A stretch of DNA of 51,953 nucleotides, from contig JAHBMJ010001505.1 in NCBI GenBank assembly GCA_018398765.1, positions 2,569 to 54,521 on the forward strand. Direction: 5' to 3'. The translations under genes were made by a program, and so were the position numbers. The notes beneath the pieces are model-generated. The model saw only the letters and a program-made list of their open reading frames with translations, ran no database searches and was not told where the DNA came from. Source of the stretch: Chromera velia (Eukaryota > Sar > Chromeraceae). Shown piece by piece: positions 8,213 through 43,300 of the stretch (positions are counted from its first letter, which is position 1; each line of letters begins with the position of its first letter).

Positions 8213-8762
8213 GCTAAAAAAAGGGCGGATCACGAAAGAAGTGACTGCCCTAGCAATGCAAACACATGAAGGAAGTGACCTTTTCCCACTGACTTATGCA
8301 AAAAGGCAGTATACGAAAGAAGTGATTGCCCCAGCAATGTAAACACACGAAAGAAGTAACATTTTTCCACCTACTTGTGCAAAAAGGGCAGATCACGAAA
8401 GAAGTGACTGCCCCAGCAATGCAAACACATGAAAGAAGTGACCTTTTTCGACCTACTTATGCAAAAAGGGCGGATCACGAAAGAAGTGACTGCTCCAGCA
8501 ATGTAAACACACAAAAGAAGTGACCTTTTTCGACCTACTTATGCAAAAAGGCGGTGTACGAAAGAAGTGACTGCCCCAGCAATGCAAACACACGAAAGAA
8601 GTGACCTTTTTCTACCTACTTATGCAAAAAGGGCGGATCATAAAAGAAGTGACTGCTCTAGCAATGCAAACACACGAAAGAAGTGACCTTTTTCTACCTA
8701 CTTATGCAAAAAGGGCGGATCACGAAAGAAGTGACTGCCCCAGCAATGCAAACACGCGAAGA
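8213..8762. repeat. 82-bp tandem array, about 6.6 copies
   Basis: Each unit contains GCAAAAAGGGCGGATCACGA, TGACTGCCCCAGCAATGCAA and CCTTTTTCTACCTACTTAT. Within each unit the 14-mer ACGAAAGAAGTGAC occurs twice, so it recurs alternately about every 35 and 47 bp. Copies differ by a few substitutions and 1-2 base indels. The array ends at GCAAACACGCGAAGATAACG. Confidence 0.95.
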
Positions 8763-14222: not shown

Positions 14223-15890
14223 CTACCGACCTGTTTTGAGGTCTCCTGCCCGCGTCTCCTCCTCTCCATCTCTTTCCTCTGCAGTCGTTTTCTTCTTCTC
14301 CTGCATCCCCACATTCTCCGCGATGCCCTCGACGAGGATTTTCTCCAAGTTCGCGATGGGCATCTCTATCAGCAAAGTCATCACCCATGCCACCAGATAG
14401 GTCGCACACCAACAGCCCAGGAAGTAGAGAAACAGTTGCACGACTGCAAAGCAAAAGGAAAAAAGAGTGGAGTGCAACAGCAGGAATCAATCAGACAACA
14501 GAAGAGAGAAGTGAATGCGTGCATCAATAGAAAAACGAATGCTGGAGATTCAGTCCGCCCGTGGATGTAAATTGAGTAAGAATGCACGCACAAGGAAGAA
14601 GAGTCATGACATGAAAGGGGGGCTGCTGCTGTTTACGCTAGAAGAAAAAAGTTCAAATTCCAAAGAAAGAAAGAAAGCAAAATGAATGAATGAAGAAAAA
14701 GAAAAGAAACCAGAAAGAAATCCAATCCCCATTGATGACGACAATTCACTCATTTTTCCTCAACTGTTCTTTCTTTCTTTCTTTCTTTCTTTCTTTCCTT
14801 CTTTCTGCCTGCTTTTGTGTCTGTATGTACAAATGAGAATCCCGTCACTCTCTCTTTCGAGAATTGTCCAGAGAGGGACTTCTTCCTCTTCCTCCTAGCT
14901 GCACGGGGGCGAATCTCTCTCTCCATGCATGCATGCGAGTTTGTTTATCCATAGATGCCCCCACGGCCATCCTCATGGCGCCCCCACTACATGCACGGGT
15001 GCTGTCTGACTGACGGACTGATTCAACGACATGGTCTCCCTCTCTCTTTCTTTTTTTCTGCTCGTTCTCTCTCTCTCTCTCCCCATGCAACCACAACTCC
15101 AACGACCAGGACAGCAGGCAGCTAGGATGAGAGAGAGCGTCCCTCTCTCCACGTGCTTGCCTGCCTGCCTGCCTATTTGCCTGTTTGCCTCCCTATCCCT
15201 CCCTCCCTCCGTACCCTCTGTGTGGTACTCTTGCCCCTTCATGTTCGAGAAGACGTGTTTTTGTTTTCTCTTCTGCCCGTTCTCTCTCCCTATTCCTTCC
15301 TTCCTACCTTCTGTGTAGTACTCCTGCCCCTTCATGTTCGCGAAGACGATGAACATGATCACTGGGTGCACCAGGTAGGCCAAGTAAGTCATCCTCGCCA
15401 GGGGGGCCCAAGCCTTCCATGACAAAATCCAGTTAGAGCAGGGCGCATACCCCTGGAGGCAGCAGAGAACAAGCCAACCGAGAGTCACTGCCCACAGAGA
15501 CCTGCAAGCAACCTCAACTTCAACGTTCAGTCTGTGCGGATCGAGCAGACATGTAAACGTGTGTGTGGTGTGTGCAGTGCAAAAAAAAGAAACCTACACA
15601 TGCTTAGACGTTCTACTGAAAGACCGCACACAGGCGGATTTGTCCGTCTGCATGCACGCAATTTTGGTGGGGGAGCGTATGCGTGCAGATTGATTCACTT
15701 GCTTACTCACAAAAGAGGAAAAAATCCGATCGACGGGATAGGACCTAGGCGAAAAATCAGCAAGGGTCCCACCGACGTTCGGACACGGAGTATGGTGGCA
15801 ATCGAACTGCGCACACTCACTCAAGAAAGTGGCAGCTGGCGTCACGTATACAGACAGACAGACCTCCTACAAGCACCATGACAGAGCGGG

Positions 15891-15971
<81 letters not shown>

Positions 15972-18900
15972 AACGAACAACTTCCTTCTCCCCCTCCTGC
16001 CCTGACTGCTCTCTCTCTCCCACGGCCCCCCCACCTGTCTGCCATGAGGAACATGACGTTCGCCCACGTGGGCCACTTCCACGAGTCCTCCTTGTTGGCT
16101 GTCCAGGGCATGAACACCAAGAAGACCCCCAACGCGAAGATGAACAGGTGGGTGCCCGCCCTACCGACAGAACTCCACTTGTCCAGTTTGACCCTCCCCT
16201 CCAGAATCGAGAGCCCGACCAGCATGCCCACTGCATAAGGCCCGATTCGGGTCCACGGCTTGTCGTATACCAAATCGAAGGAGGACTTCCCGCCGATCTG
16301 CACCAAGCCAGCCAGTCGAGCGTGGTTGGCAGTAATTGGTCATTATGTACGTGCCTACAGCCAGCCAGACATATACGTATGCATGGGGGCTAATTGTAGG
16401 GCAACAGTCTGATGTATGTGGGGGATGATGCCGAAGCGCCGCTCGAAACTGTCGACGTGCAGCGAGTGCATCTCTGCATGCGCATATGCACGCAGGGAGG
16501 GAGGGAGGTGCCATGCACGCAGGGAGGGAGGGAGGGAGGGAGGTGCCATGCACGCAGGGAGGGAGGGAGGGAGGGAGGTGCCATGCACGCAGGGAGGGAG
16601 GGAGGGAGGGAGGTGCCATGCACGCAGGGAGGGAGGGAGGGAGGGAGGTGCCATGCAGGTGCACTTCCGTTCTTCCGTTCAGTATCGTTTGGGGGACCTG
16701 CACGCACTCCCACCTACACAGACCGCACCCACGCCCACACACACTGAGGGACCGTCAAGTCTGTTCATGACAAAGATCGACAGACGCATTAGCTTGCCGA
16801 GGCACAGTTCATTCGCTCATCGGAGCGTCGCAGAGCACAAGGGATTCCTTCTTCCCTTCCCTTGCATCGATCATATAACACAACATGCAAACAACACCAG
16901 CTGGGGGGCTGCCGCCAGGTAATAAATTGAATGAAGCAAGCGCATTGTCATCGGGGAGGGGAGAGAGAGAAGGCAGAAAGAATTAACTGTCGGTCGGTCG
17001 ATGCGTCGCTGGCATGCCAGCACTAGCTGTCTGCGCGCATGAACGAACGAACGCCACGCCCGCATCCCCTGAGCCCTCCACTGACTTGTTCAAAAATCGC
17101 CACAGTAAGGGAGTTGTCGTAGGTGATCACTGCATTCGCGATTGTGCACCCGACGAGGAGCAATCCCGTCAGCACCCATCCCACAGCTTTGTGGACCCTG
17201 CATGATGCAACAGTGCAGCAGGACCATCCATCCATTGCGCATTTTAATCACGCATTTGAATGTTTGGGTGTTGAAACGATCCCTCCTCTCCCTTTGACGC
17301 GGATTGTCCGCCTGACTGACTGACTGGACTGACTGACTGACTGTCCGCCTGACTGTCTGACAAATCGTTTGACTGACTGACTGACTGACTGACTGACTGA
17401 CTGACTGACTGGCTGACTGACTGTCTGACAAATCGTTTGACTGACTGACTGACTTTGTGTACAGTGCGACGACGATTAGGGCGATGATGAAGAACTGCAT
17501 ATCGTTGGCCAGGTACCAGGACCAGACGATGCACATGTCGGCAGACTCAGTGGGGTACAGGTTATTGATGTACAGCGCATTCGTCCACCTGAACGCATTC
17601 ATTTTCATACAGAATATTTTATTTTCATAAATGAATTCTGTATGAAAATAAACGGGGTACAGGTTGTTGATGTACAGCGCGTTCGTCCACCTGCACGCAC
17701 GCATGCGCCCCCATGGAAGGGAAACAGACACGGAGACAAACAGTAGCAAGCAGCGGGCAGGTGTGGACTGCAGGCATCCTCATAGGCAGGACCATTATTA
17801 TCTGGGATGTTCTTGTGCAGTGCTCTCTTCGTCCGCCTGGATGGACGTCTTGGCTGATGCATGGACGGTTTTTTCCTCAAGAGGGGATCCAGCTAGGGGG
17901 TGGCAGTGCTGAACCAATTAATTGCCTGAACGCTTCCAGGGAAGGAAGGAAGAAGTAGTTTTTTTTTACGCACGCAGTGGGCGGAGAAGCGCGACGTCAA
18001 GCGTCAACGACTTCAGCCGACGCAGCGCTAGAGAGGGATGTCTCAAATACCGTCAGGGAGGCTCTTTTTCATGTGTGCCCTTTTCTTTTACTTTTTTGTG
18101 CGGATTCTCTCTTGTCTCTTTCACGGGCACAGCTCCCTCTGCCTAGCTCTCCCGTGAGTCTGTCAGTATGTTGTTTTCTCTCAAACTTTCGATCAGAGTT
18201 ATGGCCGGGCCAGTCTGCAGAGCAATGCATTCTTTCATCCTTCTATTCGTCTGCATGTCATTCTGCTGTCCTTCCTTCCTTCCTTCCTTCCTTGCTTGCT
18301 TCCTTCCTTCCTTCCTTCCTTTCTTTCTTTCTTTCTGCCTGCCTGCCTGCCTGCCTGACTGACCAGTACTGTCCACACGCCCCCCCGTTCCCCCCTCCAA
18401 ACTCTGCAGCCCCCCAGGTGGAGTTCACGTACTGAGGCCACAGAGGGCCGGTGCCCATGTACACACTCAGCCAATAGTACAGAGCTATGACCAAAAGGTA
18501 GACTGGCGTGAGACGCAGGTATCTGCACGCAGACGCCCAGAATCAATGACAGGAGATTCCCTCACTGTGCAGCTGAGCTTGAGATATCGCGTCAGACAGC
18601 AAAAGGGAAGAGCTGTCACCAAGAGGCAGACAAGCGTAACTAAAATGACGGACTCATAGACGTATGCTGGTGCCTCGATTGGCATAACGAAAACACGCAG
18701 GAAGAAGAAGAAGAAGAAGAAGAAGCGTAGACGCAACCCGAAAGCCCCCCCCGACCCCTTCATTCACGTGTGCTCCAACCCCAAAAGCCTTCGTCTTCTC
18801 TGCATTCGTCTTCGTGTGTGTCGTGTTCTTCCGTAAGACACAACCTGCCTGCCTGCTTACCTGAAGAGAGGGAGAGAGAGAAGAGAGATACAATCAATCA

Positions 18901-23252: not shown

Positions 23253-26048
23253 ATGATTACTTCCGCCGACACGGAGCCAGTGAAAGCGGTTTCAGGGATG
23301 CACTACAGCCAGGCAGACAAGGAGGGATACAGCAAGCAGCTTGTGGACGTCCTGCTCCGCATCGCCTACATCGTCAGTTCGGCGCATCATGTTTTTGCAT
23401 GCACGGTAGACGGGGGAAGACAAGCAAGTGGGGTCGGACACCATCTGCTGGACATGCAGGCAGAATACCAGTACAATGGAAACTCAGAAGGAAGGTTCAA
23501 TAGGCGGACAAACAGAAAGACAGCAGAGGAAGGTCCGAGGCTAGAACAGACAGGAGGATGAGGGGGTCTGATCACAAAAGGTTACTATCAGTGTGTCAGA
23601 CCGAGTGAGCAGCAGACAGCCAGATGGGTGTACAGAGAAGAAGAATGAGACGACAGGCAAGCAACCAGACACTCGCGCACCCTCCCACAATTTGAATCAT
23701 CGGGTGGGTGGTCAAGCAAGGAAGGAAAAGAAAGTCAAAACCCCCACGTACGGAAGGAATCGACGAAAGAAAAGTGCAGAGAAAAGGCAAAGGATCAGGA
23801 TTCCTCCCCACACTCTTTTTGAATCCAATGATAAAAAAAACAGAAGGGGTGGAATCTACAGCTGCAGAATGTTGCGCAATGAAGGAACACGAGAATGCGT
23901 TTCTTGCGGTTTAACAAGTAAGGAATCTCTTTTCGACAGAGACTGCAGAGGGGTCTGGGGCAGAAAGTGAAAACATGGAGATGAGGATGAGCCCTAGTGA
24001 TTCAGCACAGCCTTGTCGGCTGACTGACTGAGTAGGTCTCTCAGTTACACTGTGATGCGAGGGGCTTTTTTGACACGGTGACTGACGACGTTACTTTCCA
24101 GCTGACTGCAATGCTGACTCGCTGGAGACGGAGCGACCCTTGTATTCTCTGTCTTGGTGGTATGTATGAAGTTGAAATTCCTTTGTCCGTTTGGCTGCAT
24201 CTGTGTGCAGTGTGAAAGCCGCGGGGTGATCCCGAGCAAACTCTTTCAAGATTACGACTGGTCTCACAGGTCTGTCTGTCTGCCGCTTCACCGTGTTTCT
24301 GTCTCTCTCCCTTCGGTGTCATCTTGAAATGAATGGACCGCATCCGAGAACGCGTCTGTGTGCTTGCGTGCCGGGAGAGGTCCGACAGAGCTTGCAAGTA
24401 GAAAGACGATCTCTTACAAATCAGACCAGTCTGACTGCATGCACGCAGGCGTGTGGTTACGAAGTCACAATTCCCTTTCCTTCTTCTTTTTTTATTTGAC
24501 TGACTGCATGCATGCACGCAGGCGTGTGATCACCAAATCCCAATTCCAGCGTTCGCTGACGAATCTCCTGTCCAACCGGATCGTCTCCTCCGTAGACTAC
24601 CCCGTCTCACCCGAGGAGGTGAAACTCTTGGCAGAGACATTTGAGAAAGCACACAGAGGAGCCGAGAGCACTCGGGAGGAGAAGGGAAAGCCTGCAGCCG
24701 CACCACCGGAAGAGGTGTGGTATATGAAGTTCTGCGCGGCGGTGGAGGACATCAAGAACCACCCCGCCGCCACACAGGAGACCCTATACAGGATCAGAAG
24801 ACAGGTCGCCATAGGAGGGCGCGCCACACCCGGACCCAGCAGTTCGGCACCAACGAACAAATTTCACGTGCTTGTCCGTTGTCCCGGAGGACAGTGGGGG
24901 GCGCCTCCTGAGGTTGGGGTTGGGGGCGCTGCTTCGAACAACGCCCTGTGCTCTGTTGTGTCTTTGCTGCCGCTGGAGAAGAGAATCTTTCGTCGTCTGG
25001 CAGAGAGGAAGCTCTCGATCAGAGACCTCATTGACGAACACGACGAGAGGAAAACAGGAATCATATCCGTCAGTCAGTCAGTCAGTCAGTCAGTCAGTCA
25101 GTCTGGCAGCCTGGCAGTGCAAGGCAAGCCAAGCACGTGAAAGAAAAAGGATATTGATGCAGCATGCAAGACACGGAACGCGAAGACTTCTAGAAAGTCC
25201 GCGCAGGAATGGCGAGGAAGGGAAGGGAAGGGAAAGCGGATGGGGGGGGATCACGGAGGCCGTCAGGCAGGCAGCCCAGCAGCAAGGGAATGGATGAGAC
25301 CTCGAGGGCAAATTCAAGAGGAGGGAGGAGAAGTGATTTGATTGGGAGGATTCACCATCTCAACCAACGAACTCTAGGCACTCACGCATTCAAACAACCA
25401 CGTGCTCCATGAATGGATTGAGAGAGCCATGTAGAAGAGGTAGAAGAGGAATGAATCAGAGAAAAGAAAGAGGGCAGTCAATGAATGAACGCAATCTTTG
25501 TGTCAATGTAATTCCTTCCATTCCGCTTCTTCAATTCAGTCAGATGGATGGATTGAACGACAGATCTGTGTTCATGTTGTCCAATGAATTCTGTCCTCAT
25601 GTCTGATTTTGTTCTCTTTTTCTTCTTTCTTCACTTTCTTCCCTTCCCTTTTCTTCGTCGCTCTTCCCTCTCGTTGTGCAGGTTGACCAACTCCGTCAGG
25701 TGATCTCTTGTCTGAACTGCATTTGTGAGGAGGGAGAGCTCGAGAGTCTAGTGAAGAAATATGAATGGGATACCGGACTCATCGATGCAGGTGGGTCAAT
25801 TGGCCTGTCTGTGCATGTGTCTTTCTGTGGATAGGTCTAGTGTGTTTCTTGCTCTCTTGGTGCAGTCATTTAGATGCACTTGACGCATTTACGCAGCAAA
25901 AGCTAGAGACAGAGTCGTTCTAACGAAGGAAAAATGCGAATAAGGGGAATTGAAAGGGGGGCCACGGCAACACATAGACATATCGCTTTCTTTTGAAGCG
26001 ACGGCTATCAGGCTGTTTGCTTTTTGCTTCTACTCGGCAACGGCGCCG

Positions 26049-26202: not shown

Positions 26203-27873
26203 TGTGTGATTATCAAGTGAAAAGCGTCTCACAGTGATATTGTTCATGCACACAATAAATACAGGCACCCTCCGGTACGCACTTGAGCACGCTGACGATG
26301 CCACAGGGAGGGGCGATGCAGGAGACCTCCGGGGCCGGGGAAGGCAGGGGAGGGGGGCGCACTGGGGAGAGAGGGGGGAGGACGAAGCAGACAGAGCGCG
26401 GGCGGGGGAAGACAGAAGAGGAGGCAGGGGACCGTCAGGTCGGTTGTCACTTTGTGCATACACATAGCTGCTCTCACTTGACATGCACGGGTTTTTCTTT
26501 TAATTTCATACAGACAAACACACTTAGTTCTTCAGTGCACTCATACAAATTGAAAGAAAGAATTTGTTTTTGCTCCCAAGATTCCTCGAGGGATCGAGAC
26601 ATACTCAGTGCAGTGAGGCCATTTCACTGGACAGAGGAATCTCATTTATGTTCTTCATTTTTATTTCCTTGCAGGTCCCCATCTGTGCTTTCAAATGAAT
26701 CTCTGTCTGTCTGTCTGTCTGTCTGTGTGCAGGTACTGACGTCTTCTCTCTGCCCAACGAGGCAGACCTCACCGATGTGCAGAGAAAAGAGGTCCGTCGA
26801 TCAGTCTGCATGTAGTCAATAGAAGCAAAATAGAGTGAAGGAATGAGAGAAAAGAGGTCCGTCAGCAGTCAATAGAAGCAAAATAGAGTGAAGGAATGAA
26901 TAAGCACTCGTGGAAATTTCTGTCAAGCGCTATGTACCAATCTCTCTCTCTTCTCACATGACCACACAGACCAACGGCACTACGATCGATGTGTCGCTTC
27001 CCTTCCATGAGAATTGGAAGGAGACAGGCAGGCCACTTCGCTTCGCTTCATTGTGGACGAAATTGATCCGAGCATAACGAATTGATCGCATGTTCGTGAA
27101 ATCGCAATTCACAACACTACACTGAAAGCTCTGGAATCTTCGACTGACTGTTCCCTCATTGGCTGATTCGAATGTCGGGCTCTCTGGCTTTCCCTTTTTC
27201 CGCAGAGCGTCCTCCCTCCTCCCTCCACACGCATCCATCCGATACTGCTCTGGTGTGAATGCACGTCTGGAGCTTTTCTGTGACAAGAATATATTGAATT
27301 CCGTGCTCCTGCAGGTGAAGGCTGTTGAGGACATAATCTTCCAATCGTCAACTATTTGCATTAATTTCTATACGGAATTCTTTATACGTACAAAAAAAAG
27401 AATAGATACAAAAAAAGATTTCTGTATGAAAATGAATGCATGCAGGTGAAGGCTGTTGAGGACAGAATCTTCCAATGGTCAACTACCAGGTCCGTCGGTC
27501 CGACAGTCAGAAGCGCTGTTGTTGAAGGAATGAAAAAAAAATTAGTAGTTCCAGTATTCTAGCTGATTGCTGTTGTTTCCCCCTTTGATGATGCCATCAT
27601 GCACCTACGCCATTCGACATCGAAACTTTGCACAATGTTCCCCCCTTTTTCGTTTTGAAGATTCATGAGAAGAAAGGAAAACAAACAGCAGAAAGCTTTC
27701 TTGTCTCCCATTCAAATGCTGCAGTGAATTTGAAACTCACACATACGCTCTAGCTCTCTTTTCCGTGCGCAAGGATTCCGCTGCCTTTCTGCTTTTGGTT
27801 CGTTGGCTCACATCTCCTCTCTCTTTCGGCAAACGCGATTCTATGTCTCGTGCTGAGTTTGCACAGATGCATT

Positions 27874-27977: not shown

Positions 27978-28739
27978 AAGAGTGGATCTCCGATCTTTCA
28001 TCCCTCCTTTCGACACTCACAGAAGGGGAGTTGTGTCGGCAACAAACTTCGCACGAGCTCTCGCGCAGGTACGTTGGTCAGATAGGCAGTCTGTCGGTCC
28101 TGTGGATGAATGGACTGTCCTTCCAATCTGCTTCCTCCCTCCTTAATTCATTCGGGACGACGAAGACTTTCTTTCTGTGCGTCTCGATCATTATGTGAAC
28201 ACATGCCTTGCTTACTCTGTCGCTCTTTCCGTCATGCAGGCAGACGGTCTCTCTCTGACCCAGAGGGAGTTCTGTTCAGTTCCTTTTTATTGTCTTTAAG
28301 TAAAACATTCATTCCAATATTGATGCACATTCTTCGATTCTTTCTCGATCATTTTGATAATTTCTGCAGGCGGGTCTTTCCTTGACGCAGAGGGAGCTCA
28401 GCCTCCTGGCTTTGAAGTATTCAGATCACCTTGACAGGAGGGGGCTGTTGTTCCATCCTTTTCTTCGACTGCTCGAGGACAAAAAGGTTCGTTGGTTCGT
28501 GGGTGAGTGAGTGAGTGAGTGAGTGAGTGAGTGAATGCTAGAGTGAGTGAGTGAGTGAGTGAGTGAGTGCAAGGGGGGTCCCTCCTTCCCACTGTGGATC
28601 TGAATCGGTGCCTCCGGTCCCTTGCAAGAACGAACACACAGACAGACAGACAGTTCTTTTGTCTGTCCCTCTTTTCTGCCCTCCTATTCCATCCGACTAG
28701 AAAAGAGAGAGAGAGTGTGGCCACTCTTTGGATGCACAC

Positions 28740-40394: not shown

Positions 40395-43300
40395 ATGTCA
40401 GCAGAGACGCACTTTTCGCCTGACCTGAAGGTCTATGGGCTTCCCACAAATCTTCGTATCTGCAAGGTCAGTGAATTTCACATTCCCGGCCGGGATCCAT
40501 TCCGCCGCTCTGGGTGCATGTCACATCTTGTGTCCATCTGCATCTGAGGCTTTCCCTCCCTTTTTCTCTTCGCCTCTACTCGCCTTGCAGAAGTACGAGG
40601 TGGTTTTTCCTGATCCTGTGATCGCCAAACGGGTGGAGAGAAATTCGGTGATTGCGAGTTTAATCCGATTGAGGGAGAAGGACACAGGTCGGTCAGTTGG
40701 TTGGCCCTCCATTCTTTTCATCATTTCCTCTTCTAGTCCTTGTTCCTTTCATATAAGTAGCTGGTCCTCAAAAAATGCAGAGTGAGAAGCAAGGCAGATT
40801 TGCAAAGTTTGCAAAGGTCAGGCAGCTCAGGTCAGGCCGGTTGGGCTTTCGAGGCACAAGGAAAGGAACTGTCTGTCTTGGGCTTTTCCTTCTTGTCTCC
40901 CAATCTCTTTATCACGCTCGCATAATTTATTGGACACTGAGGTGCGGCAGAGCTTCGGTTTCAGTGCACGGACGTATGCTGCAGAGGGGAGGAAAAGGCG
41001 AAAGGACGACAGAGGGCGAAAGTCTTTTCTCATCGCTCCGTTCTTTTTCATTTGGTTTTCCCCATTTTGCTCGATCATCTCTTCCCTGTGTGTCATCGTG
41101 TGTCATCCTGCCTGTGCGCTCCTTGATCCTGGACCTCCCTCAACCATAAGTGTGTGAGACGAGACGAGAGGTGACGATCGGCAGATGACGAAGGTTTTCT
41201 CTAACTTCTTCTGGGTGTGAAGGGGTACCGCCCTCTTTCGTCAGCCAAACCCCAAAACCTGGAGATCCGTGCGCCTTCTCGTGGCTTGATTCTCCCCTTG
41301 CCTGCCTGCGTCCATGCCTGCCTGCCTCTGTCCAATGGTCATTTGTGCTGCAGGTCGTCCTGTGGTCGTGAAGGTTTTGCGGTTCGGGGAGAAGGATGTC
41401 GACCTGGTGGCAAGAGAGGCCGCCATCCTCACCAGCCCACGGGCCGTCCATCCGAACATCGTCAGTCAGACAGGCAGGCGGGCAGTGAGCCAGCAGGGTA
41501 TCAGCTACTTCCAGTCACTCAGGCAAGCAGCAAGGCATGAAGCGGCACACCTTTGCGAGCAAGGAAAGAGGCGGGCATGGAGGGGATGTGGCTGGATTGG
41601 CTTCAGCATGGGAAGAGAAAGTTCCACACCTGCAGACGTGCTCGACGAAANNNNNNNNNNNNNNNNNNNNNNNNNNNNNNNNNNNNNNNNNNNNNNNNNN
41701 NNNNNNNNNNNNNNNNNNNNNNNNNNNNNNNNNNNNNNNNNNNNNNNNNNNNNNNNNNNNNNNNNNNNNNNNNNNNNNNNNNNNNNNNNNNNNNNNNNNN
41801 NNNNNNNNNNNNNNNNNNNNNNNNNNNNNNNNNNNNNNNNNNNNNNNNNNNNNNNNNNNNNNNNNNNNNNNNNNNNNNNNNNNNNNNNNNNNNNNNNNNN
41901 NNNNNNNNNNNNNNNNNNNNNNNNNNNNNNNNNNNNNNNNNNNNNNNNNNNNNGGGGGGGGGGGGGGAATAAAGGGGTTCTTCTGGTTTTATTCTGTAGG
42001 CAGTCACGCGGCATGCCGCCAGCATCAACATATTCCTGGATGACTCTGGTCCTCCTGTCTCTTTCGTTTCTTTCTCCGACTGTGTGGTTGTTCGTCAATC
42101 TCTGTCTGCGTGTGTGCAGATATTCTGTGAGAGGTGTGACGCAGGCGGACTGCCACCCAGGCAGGCGTCTCACATCTACCTCTACCTTGAGTACCTGCCC
42201 CACACATTGAGAGAGCTCCTAGATTTGCCCCCTGTTGATGAAATCCAAGGACAACCAGACAGCAGTCACACTGCCTCCTCTTCTTCCTCTTCCGCGGCTG
42301 CGGGAAGGAAAAAAGAAAAAAGCCGAAAGGGCACAAAACAGAAAGAGAGACAGTCTGAATCAAATTCATCCGCCTCTCCCAACTTCCCCCCACCGGGGCC
42401 CTTTCCGCTATCCGACCAGGACAAGAAGCACGTTGCCGTGCAGTTGCTAAGTGCGTTGCGTCATTTGCACAAAGAGTATGTAATCCACCGAGATCTCAAG
42501 CCTGAGAATGTGCTGGTGGGGAGGGATCCCGCTTCAGGGCGGGTGATTGCCAAGTTGATTGACTTTGGTTTGGCCAGGGACTTGGTGGGGAATGAGGGGA
42601 ATGACTCTGCTCATTATACACTTGACAACGGCACGCTCCACTTTTGCCCAAGAGAGCAGTTGCTTCTTCTTCAGTGCACAAAGCTCCAAAGGAAGTTCGT
42701 GAGAGAAGAGCAGGACGCCGAAGCATACGGAAAGCTTCTGTTGGAGATGTTTGCAACACAAAGAGCTTTCGTTAACGTTGAGGGGGGAACAGAGAAAGAA
42801 AATGGGTCATCCCAGGGGGGCGGACACAAGGCCAAGACGAAGAAAAAAAAACAAGACGGACCCTCCTCATCCTCTTCCACCCAAGTTGACATCACCTTTC
42901 ACGACCGTTCCTGTCCCTCCGACTCCATTTCCTCTTCCTCTTCCTCTTCTTCCCCCCCGAAATATGCCTCTGTGTTCGCTGTGGAGGGCCTGGAAGGAGT
43001 CCTGCCATCAGAAAGGAAGGCAGAGAGATGGCCGAAGTTCCCGAAAGTCCAGAGGTCCAAAACAAAATTCCTCGACGCAATCGTGACAGACTTGATTCTG
43101 CTTGGGGCACCTCCTCAACAGGTCAGTTAGTTATTTAGTGCCTTGTTGTTGTTCAGATGGACGGACTTCTCGTTTCTTCCTTCTTGCCTTTGTTTCGATC
43201 TGTTTTCCTGTTCTTGTGTTCTTTCTCTCTCTCTCCCCCCCTCTCTTTCTCGCTCGCTCGCTCGCTCTCTCTTTCTCTCTCTTCCTTCCATTCATTCATT

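Follow-up and report, generated by a model that had tools for sequence, protein, structure and literature searches.

Two copies of one element lie between duplicated host sequences in the window

Why would two unrelated genes on opposite strands carry the same 20-mer directly in front of an acceptor? The question was raised by a sequence-only reading of the window, that is, the whole stretch of 51,953 nucleotides of Chromera velia DNA (GC 46-54%) that was analysed here. The features at the two sites are as follows.

27310..27354, plus strand: host duplication, upstream copy; acceptor TGCAG at 27310-27314 and exon start
27355..27440, plus strand: element, 86 bp, with imperfect inverted ends
27420..27439, plus strand: 20-mer TTCTGTATGAAAATGAATGC, the outer part of one arm
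27441..27485, plus strand: host duplication, downstream copy; acceptor TGCAG at 27441-27445, exon frame VKAVEDRIFQWSTT
27447..27449, plus strand: TGA, in frame only via the upstream acceptor copy (ORF 27126-27449)
17654..17696, minus strand: host duplication, upstream copy in gene sense; acceptor GCGTGCAG, then RWTNALYINNLYP
17595..17653, minus strand: second window element, 59 bp, with inverted arms
17552..17594, minus strand: host duplication, downstream copy; acceptor GCGTTCAG

The duplicated exon start that had been described in the plus-strand gene, with an offset of 131, was confirmed as two direct copies of 45 bp (27310-27354 and 27441-27485) with 96% identity. The 86 bp between them, which begin with TTTGCATTAATTTCTATACGGAATTC and end with TTCTGTATGAAAATGAATGCA, do have imperfect inverted ends, also as described. 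The identical 20-mer occurs at 27420-27439 (plus strand) and 17595-17614 (minus strand), and chance is not an adequate explanation for the sharing (mean expectation 0.00 in 100 shuffles of the window). At both sites the 20-mer leads into a CAG acceptor-like sequence that opens the downstream duplicate, in keeping with the claim that it abuts acceptors. We found that the second element, too, has a copy of one host stretch on either side (43-46 bp, offset 102), a duplication absent from the earlier reading.

The plus-strand gene has a single open frame in the downstream exon copy. Entry from the upstream acceptor leads to the TGA at 27447-27449, so the open exon requires the downstream acceptor. 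In the minus-strand gene the path from the upstream acceptor stays open (102 bp). Two exons of this gene match Acyl_transf_3 with E values of 0.013 and 0.014, below the Pfam cut-off. It looks like an acyltransferase-3/NRF6-like gene and is called the acyltransferase gene below. The EF-hand label given to the plus-strand gene had no Pfam support in the two short pieces searched (69 and 38 aa).

The window contains other repeats. A 27 bp duplication (28246-28272 and 28373-28399; 81%) with two acceptor-like sites apparently lies in the same plus-strand gene; its 100 bp insert has no clear family words, and the duplication may be the trace of an old insertion of this type. A 54 bp duplication (15202-15255 and 15295-15348; 87%) in the acyltransferase-like gene flanks 39 bp of inserted sequence that has no relation to the family. 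A 39 bp duplication (24436-24474 and 24509-24547; 87%) opens with the acceptor-like TGCATGCACGCAG and flanks a non-family, pyrimidine-rich insert of 34 bp. There is a tandem repeat with units of ~82 bp at 8218-8740, and the ORFs at 41508-42218 contain a run of residues translated as X, which indicates bases that are unresolved or withheld.

The elements belong to a multi-copy family with outward-facing arms

We searched the Chromera velia assembly (177.8 Mb, 4040 contigs) for words of the element. A light-harvesting protein encoded in this genome has 98% identity to a UniRef entry of Chromera velia CCMP2878. The 20-mer seen in the window (G-variant) had 66 exact matches, its A-variant 173 and the arm core AGAATTCTGTATGAAA 965; a 25-mer had 892 matches with up to three mismatches. 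The reversed words had none. An inner word, GCTCCCTGAAAAAGAATTC, had 67 matches with at most one mismatch (control 0); of 12 that were inspected, five were at one site. Thus the 20-mer does mark a family, as had been proposed, and copies are found far beyond the window.

The fullest copies have two outward-facing arms of ~35 bp, and most of the copies examined are shorter inside. The fullest copy of all, L144 (C836:29713-29891), combines one complete arm, GCTCCCTGAAAAAGAATTCTGTATGAAAGTAAACG, with a second complete arm that is its reverse complement; the two face outward, are separated by ~8 extra bases and have more arms alongside. This site is a complex cluster with at least five arm copies. 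The ~70 bp near-palindrome that we take as the full form would be a composite read from copies such as L144; no single copy is perfect. Conservation over 146 arms, a set that probably includes one chance match from a viral contig, was highest at the core and the outer end and faded inward.

The sampled loci contained 131 arm clusters, 105 of them with a duplication. By the order and orientation of their arms, these 105 comprised 42 '-+', 27 '+', 19 '-', 3 '--', 2 '++' and 12 longer clusters. The inward order '+-' was not found among two-arm clusters, and inward neighbours were confined to longer ones. That is, the inverted termini typical of MITEs and other TIR elements are present in 42 of the 47 two-arm clusters, and 46 further clusters have one detected arm. 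A '+' or '-' cluster has one arm that passes the core test; in some such clusters, including the window element at 27355-27440, a second arm is present but worn. Copies with one arm only also exist (e.g., L149 and L121), and three loci (L038, L080 and L090) have tandem arrays of duplicate plus element. We found no longer body upstream of the arms: over the 700 bp compared, arm-linked matches were at most 48 bp among 80 of the 168 matching pairs, and the one 54 bp match among these 80 (L065 and L085) was not arm-linked.

An artefact of assembly or adaptors was considered and ruled out because the duplicates have diverged, end variants and arrays exist, and the Rpt4 protein (below) is intact. 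A single exact 17-mer match in viral contigs was taken as chance, and a 24-mer had no match among GTDB genomes. Rfam gave no match at gathering scores over the whole window. Matches to miRNA precursors in L142 and L144 were all below the gathering score and were attributed to hairpin shape.

A long duplication of variable length flanks the elements

We examined 110 exact arm matches for duplication of the adjacent host sequence: 64 of the G-variant outside the window, 2 in the window, and 41 plus 3 of the A-variant. The 64 G-variant matches were covered by 56 loci and the 41 A-variant matches (of 173) by 40 loci; the 3 other A-variant matches were in the first set. A-variant loci were taken in order, up to C905, among the matches listed (100 of 173), excluding C634, the arrays C709 and C710, and C758. 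L093-L096 were left out of the 110-match and 41-match counts. Loci were selected by an intact arm, and a duplication was counted if its score was 15 or higher and it lay no more than 12 bp from the arm.

Eighty-seven of the 110 matches had a duplication next to the arm, and 82 of these 87 were outside arrays. In the previously unexamined A-variant set the fraction was 35 of 41. Among the other 23 matches, seven had a duplicate further from the arm (L060, L079, L084, L115, L118, L122 and L126). The remaining 16 scored below 15, mostly within the range of the flank controls (mostly 7-13), and 15 of them gave nothing better when all available upstream sequence was searched again.

Among 93 one- or two-arm clusters, the duplication was 16-78 bp long (median 39, sd 12.2). 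The flanking duplication is therefore unlike ordinary target duplications, as had been suspected from the window: it has the variable length of LINE and SINE target duplications and not the short, fixed length expected of a MITE. The body that LINEs and SINEs share beyond the arm was absent from the upstream comparison above. Both copies were identical in 24 of the 93 clusters, and the median identity was 0.956. These identical pairs suggest recent activity of the family, and we count them in favor of the explanation given below. No clear motif marked the boundaries of the duplication. The length of the insert, modulo 3, gave remainders 0/1/2 in 24/9/21 acceptor-type cases and 8/12/19 others.

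Duplications of this kind are mostly associated with the family. In 171 kb of background (the same loci plus the window) there were 77 family pairs and 17 non-family pairs; roughly ten of the 17 were tandem repeats and one (L049) was a diverged family copy. Non-family duplications had no excess of acceptors: YAG occurred at 34 distinct places, compared to 30-41 for other triplets.

The duplications are enriched in acceptor-like motifs

We measured the association with splice sites by scoring motifs in the duplicates against equal-length control stretches or flanks from the same loci, so the results concern motifs and not annotated introns or gene models. TGCAG was found in 38 of 93 duplicates, compared to 15.1 ± 3.3 in controls (highest of 300 controls, 26). 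In the first set, it was in 32 of 77, compared to 11.0 ± 3.0 in equal-length stretches. An acceptor score of at least 1.0 was reached at 34 of 74 loci, compared to 15.2 ± 3.3 (highest of 300 controls, 26), an excess over background of about a quarter of the loci. AGGT was also frequent (27 of 77, compared to 13.6 ± 3.0). A loose acceptor pattern with a pyrimidine tract was less distinctive (37 compared to 26.1 ± 4.1), and the highest control (38) surpassed it. Many left copies have a pyrimidine-rich acceptor context of their own. In the 45 of 93 clusters with an acceptor score of this size, some of which will be background, the exon started a median of 9 bp into the duplicate and a median of 27 bp of exon was duplicated.

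The donor signal was weaker. GGT[ACG][ACG]G was present in 22 of 93, compared to 11.7 ± 3.1, and the highest control equaled it (22). GTRAGT was only slightly up (6 of 77, compared to 3.3 ± 1.7), and GGT[AG]AG was not raised in the 93 clusters (4, compared to 2.1 ± 1.3).

Part of the splice-motif signal may be exon-like composition, because two of four supposedly neutral words were also raised (GGACG, 11 compared to 5.3 ± 2.2; TCAAG, 11 compared to 6.1 ± 2.2); GCTGA and CACGA were not raised in the 93 clusters. The GC content of the duplicates (0.536) was slightly higher than that of the flanks (0.485-0.516), as expected if they overlap exons. An early impression that one-arm clusters are oriented toward the acceptor was dropped (10 to 8).

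By motif scores and flank controls, then, the placement of the copies with respect to acceptor-like motifs is not random. If elements inserted anywhere and the harmful insertions were later lost, copies in introns and in intergenic DNA should survive too, so such a process is not sufficient on its own to account for the excess; a preference for exons or exon borders is needed.

The elements straddle existing splice sites in two genes

The sequence-only reading had proposed that the elements insert at, or create, 3' splice sites. The association with 3' splice-site motifs held up, with the qualification that donors are also affected. The creation of introns did not hold in the two genes tested.

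The acyltransferase gene has a paralogue (L138) with 82% identity over the exon. L138 has the same intron end, ATGCGTGCAG/GTGGAC (the slash marks the border), and a single exon copy with neither element nor duplication. That is, it represents an empty site, and the simplest reading is that the intron predates the element.

The second gene encodes Rpt4 (L157). It was named from PDB matches of its peptide, the tail of which we supplied from what we presume to be the Rpt4 sequence, and an assembled query, with guessed joints, was 99% identical to a Chromera velia UniRef entry. One element lies across an acceptor, with the duplicate copies 107 bp apart, and the path from the upstream acceptor runs into a stop. 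A second element lies across a donor (...CTTATGGAG/GTCAGCAG). The upstream exon ends ~390 bp before the first acceptor copy; the intron extends that far upstream of the duplication. The Chromera Rpt4 protein P0091 (jgi, uniref, mmetsp and eukprot) contains each duplicated segment once and neither element, which indicates removal by splicing, at the protein level, in this one gene. Proteins in mmetsp derive from transcripts. Based on the empty site with its intron and on Rpt4, we infer that elements straddle splice sites that already existed. A gene identified by Pfam as DnaJ has a duplication that apparently spans an exon end and a GT, a donor-type case.

How the elements may insert

A mechanism has to account for the outward arms, the long variable duplication, the excess of splice motifs and the absence of the elements from the protein of one gene. 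We think that the elements are probably a short, non-autonomous mobile family that enters by staggered nicking and leaves a duplication that can straddle a splice site. Its fullest form would have two outward-facing arms of ~35 bp, head to head around a GAGCGCTC-like centre, with outer ends ...AATGCA or ...AAACGCA; sampled copies appear to keep an outer end and to have lost most of the inner sequence. Entry would be at two nicks on opposite strands, mostly ~16-60 bp apart, and a putative enzyme would fill in the stretch between them, leaving a long direct duplication of variable length on both sides; nicks and fill-in are read back from the product. A large share of insertions, about a quarter of loci above background by motif score, would span a pre-existing exon-intron border, more often at acceptors than at donors. 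Because the splice site is part of what is duplicated, the gene would keep one intact, suitably placed site, and the element and one duplicate would fall inside the intron. For Rpt4 the protein supports this outcome, and for the acyltransferase gene the empty paralogue does; for other genes we infer it. The end of the element and the AG of the duplicate would often form a new acceptor (AATGCAG/). The duplicates would later diverge, and recombination between them could give the short tandem arrays found at some sites.

Copies with one arm only, such as L149 and L121, are not predicted for a two-ended transposon and count against this explanation, as do the lack of a clear boundary motif and the 16 arm matches with a score below 15. 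One-arm copies are among the observations that twin-primed reverse transcription explains well. An endonuclease would nick both strands and both 3' ends would copy the same short RNA, with the 3' end ...GUAUGAAAAURAAUGCA; the copies would join at self-complementary stretches (GAATTC and GAGCGCTC), which would yield inverted arms that differ in length, between long, variable duplications. The inward fading of arm conservation, the highly variable duplication length, inserts that resemble patchworks of the same words in either orientation (e.g., L125, L105 and L107) and the terminal TGCA that some duplicates have next to the element (e.g., L098, L119, L127 and L129) all fit. However, no longer body was common upstream of the arms in the matching pairs inspected, boundaries have no consistent primer motif, and clusters with one detected arm have no direction relative to the acceptor, with the caveat that some second arms are too worn for the core test. 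We regard this route as rather unlikely.

If instead the tandem duplication were primary, staggered breaks near intron borders would be filled and rejoined with captured filler, and the family sequence would be that filler. The few non-family inserts within duplications in the window (15202, 24436 and 28246) are of the kind that such repair would give, but non-family cases are few, their duplications have no YAG excess, and the filler sequences belong to a single family whose ends face outward, all of which make repair improbable. A classical introner, which makes new introns inside exons, is very improbable. AGGT, the motif required in the model of intron gain by duplication, is frequent in the duplicates; against this, the paralogue has its intron with no element, the Rpt4 intron reaches well upstream of the duplication, and many left copies bring their own acceptor context.

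Comparison with known systems

MITEs are tiny, have no coding capacity and have inverted ends and shortened copies; in MITE superfamilies target duplications are short and of fixed length. The Chromera family shares the small size, lack of coding capacity, inverted ends and shortened copies, and has a long and variable duplication instead. Since this is outside the short, fixed range known for inverted-end elements, it points to an integration step that has not been described.

Introners, as treated in the main text of Gozashti et al. 2022 (PMC9860276), are also short families, some with inverted ends, linked to splice sites that come partly from the element and partly from the target duplication. 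In contrast, the characterised families cited there have repeats of 3-9 bp and make new introns, whereas duplications in the Chromera family are mostly 16-60 bp and, in the two genes tested, at existing introns. 'Chromera' does not appear in that main text. The introner elements of Amoebophrya, another alveolate, are described in the portion of PMC7789003 consulted as having inverted repeats (8-20 nt), a predicted hairpin and direct repeats over exon-intron borders. Unlike the Chromera elements, they have direct repeats of 3-5 nt and are themselves introns, largely non-canonical. Twin-primed LINE insertions, in the part of PMC2837659 consulted, also place copies of a single template, in opposite orientations, between target duplications; the Chromera family differs in having no LINE body and in that both arms start at the same end of the template. 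Some copies of Penelope-like elements, in the sections of PMC3846280 consulted, have inverted terminal repeats, and these elements also have palindromes at the ends of their repeats and target duplications, but they are large coding elements with duplications of 8-10 bp (in one study). No report of the Chromera family was found in the literature searched, which included passages of the Chromera genome paper (PMC4501334). The novel part is the long, variable duplication that spans a splice site.

The family is flanked by host copies of roughly 16-60 bp that often include an intron border, so that the insert can be removed from the message; such length and variability are unusual in elements of this kind. 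A possible, tentative reading is that this is a distinct class of eukaryotic mobile element, in which nicking with a stagger of ~40 bp duplicates whole splice sites and permits harmless entry at exon edges. If so, each such insertion would shift an intron border, and a relic of the exon edge would stay behind within the intron. The results suggest a simple route to life at exon edges, with the copied splice site rendering the insertion harmless, and the abundance of core copies and of identical duplicate pairs makes the idea testable in a living, sequenced alga.
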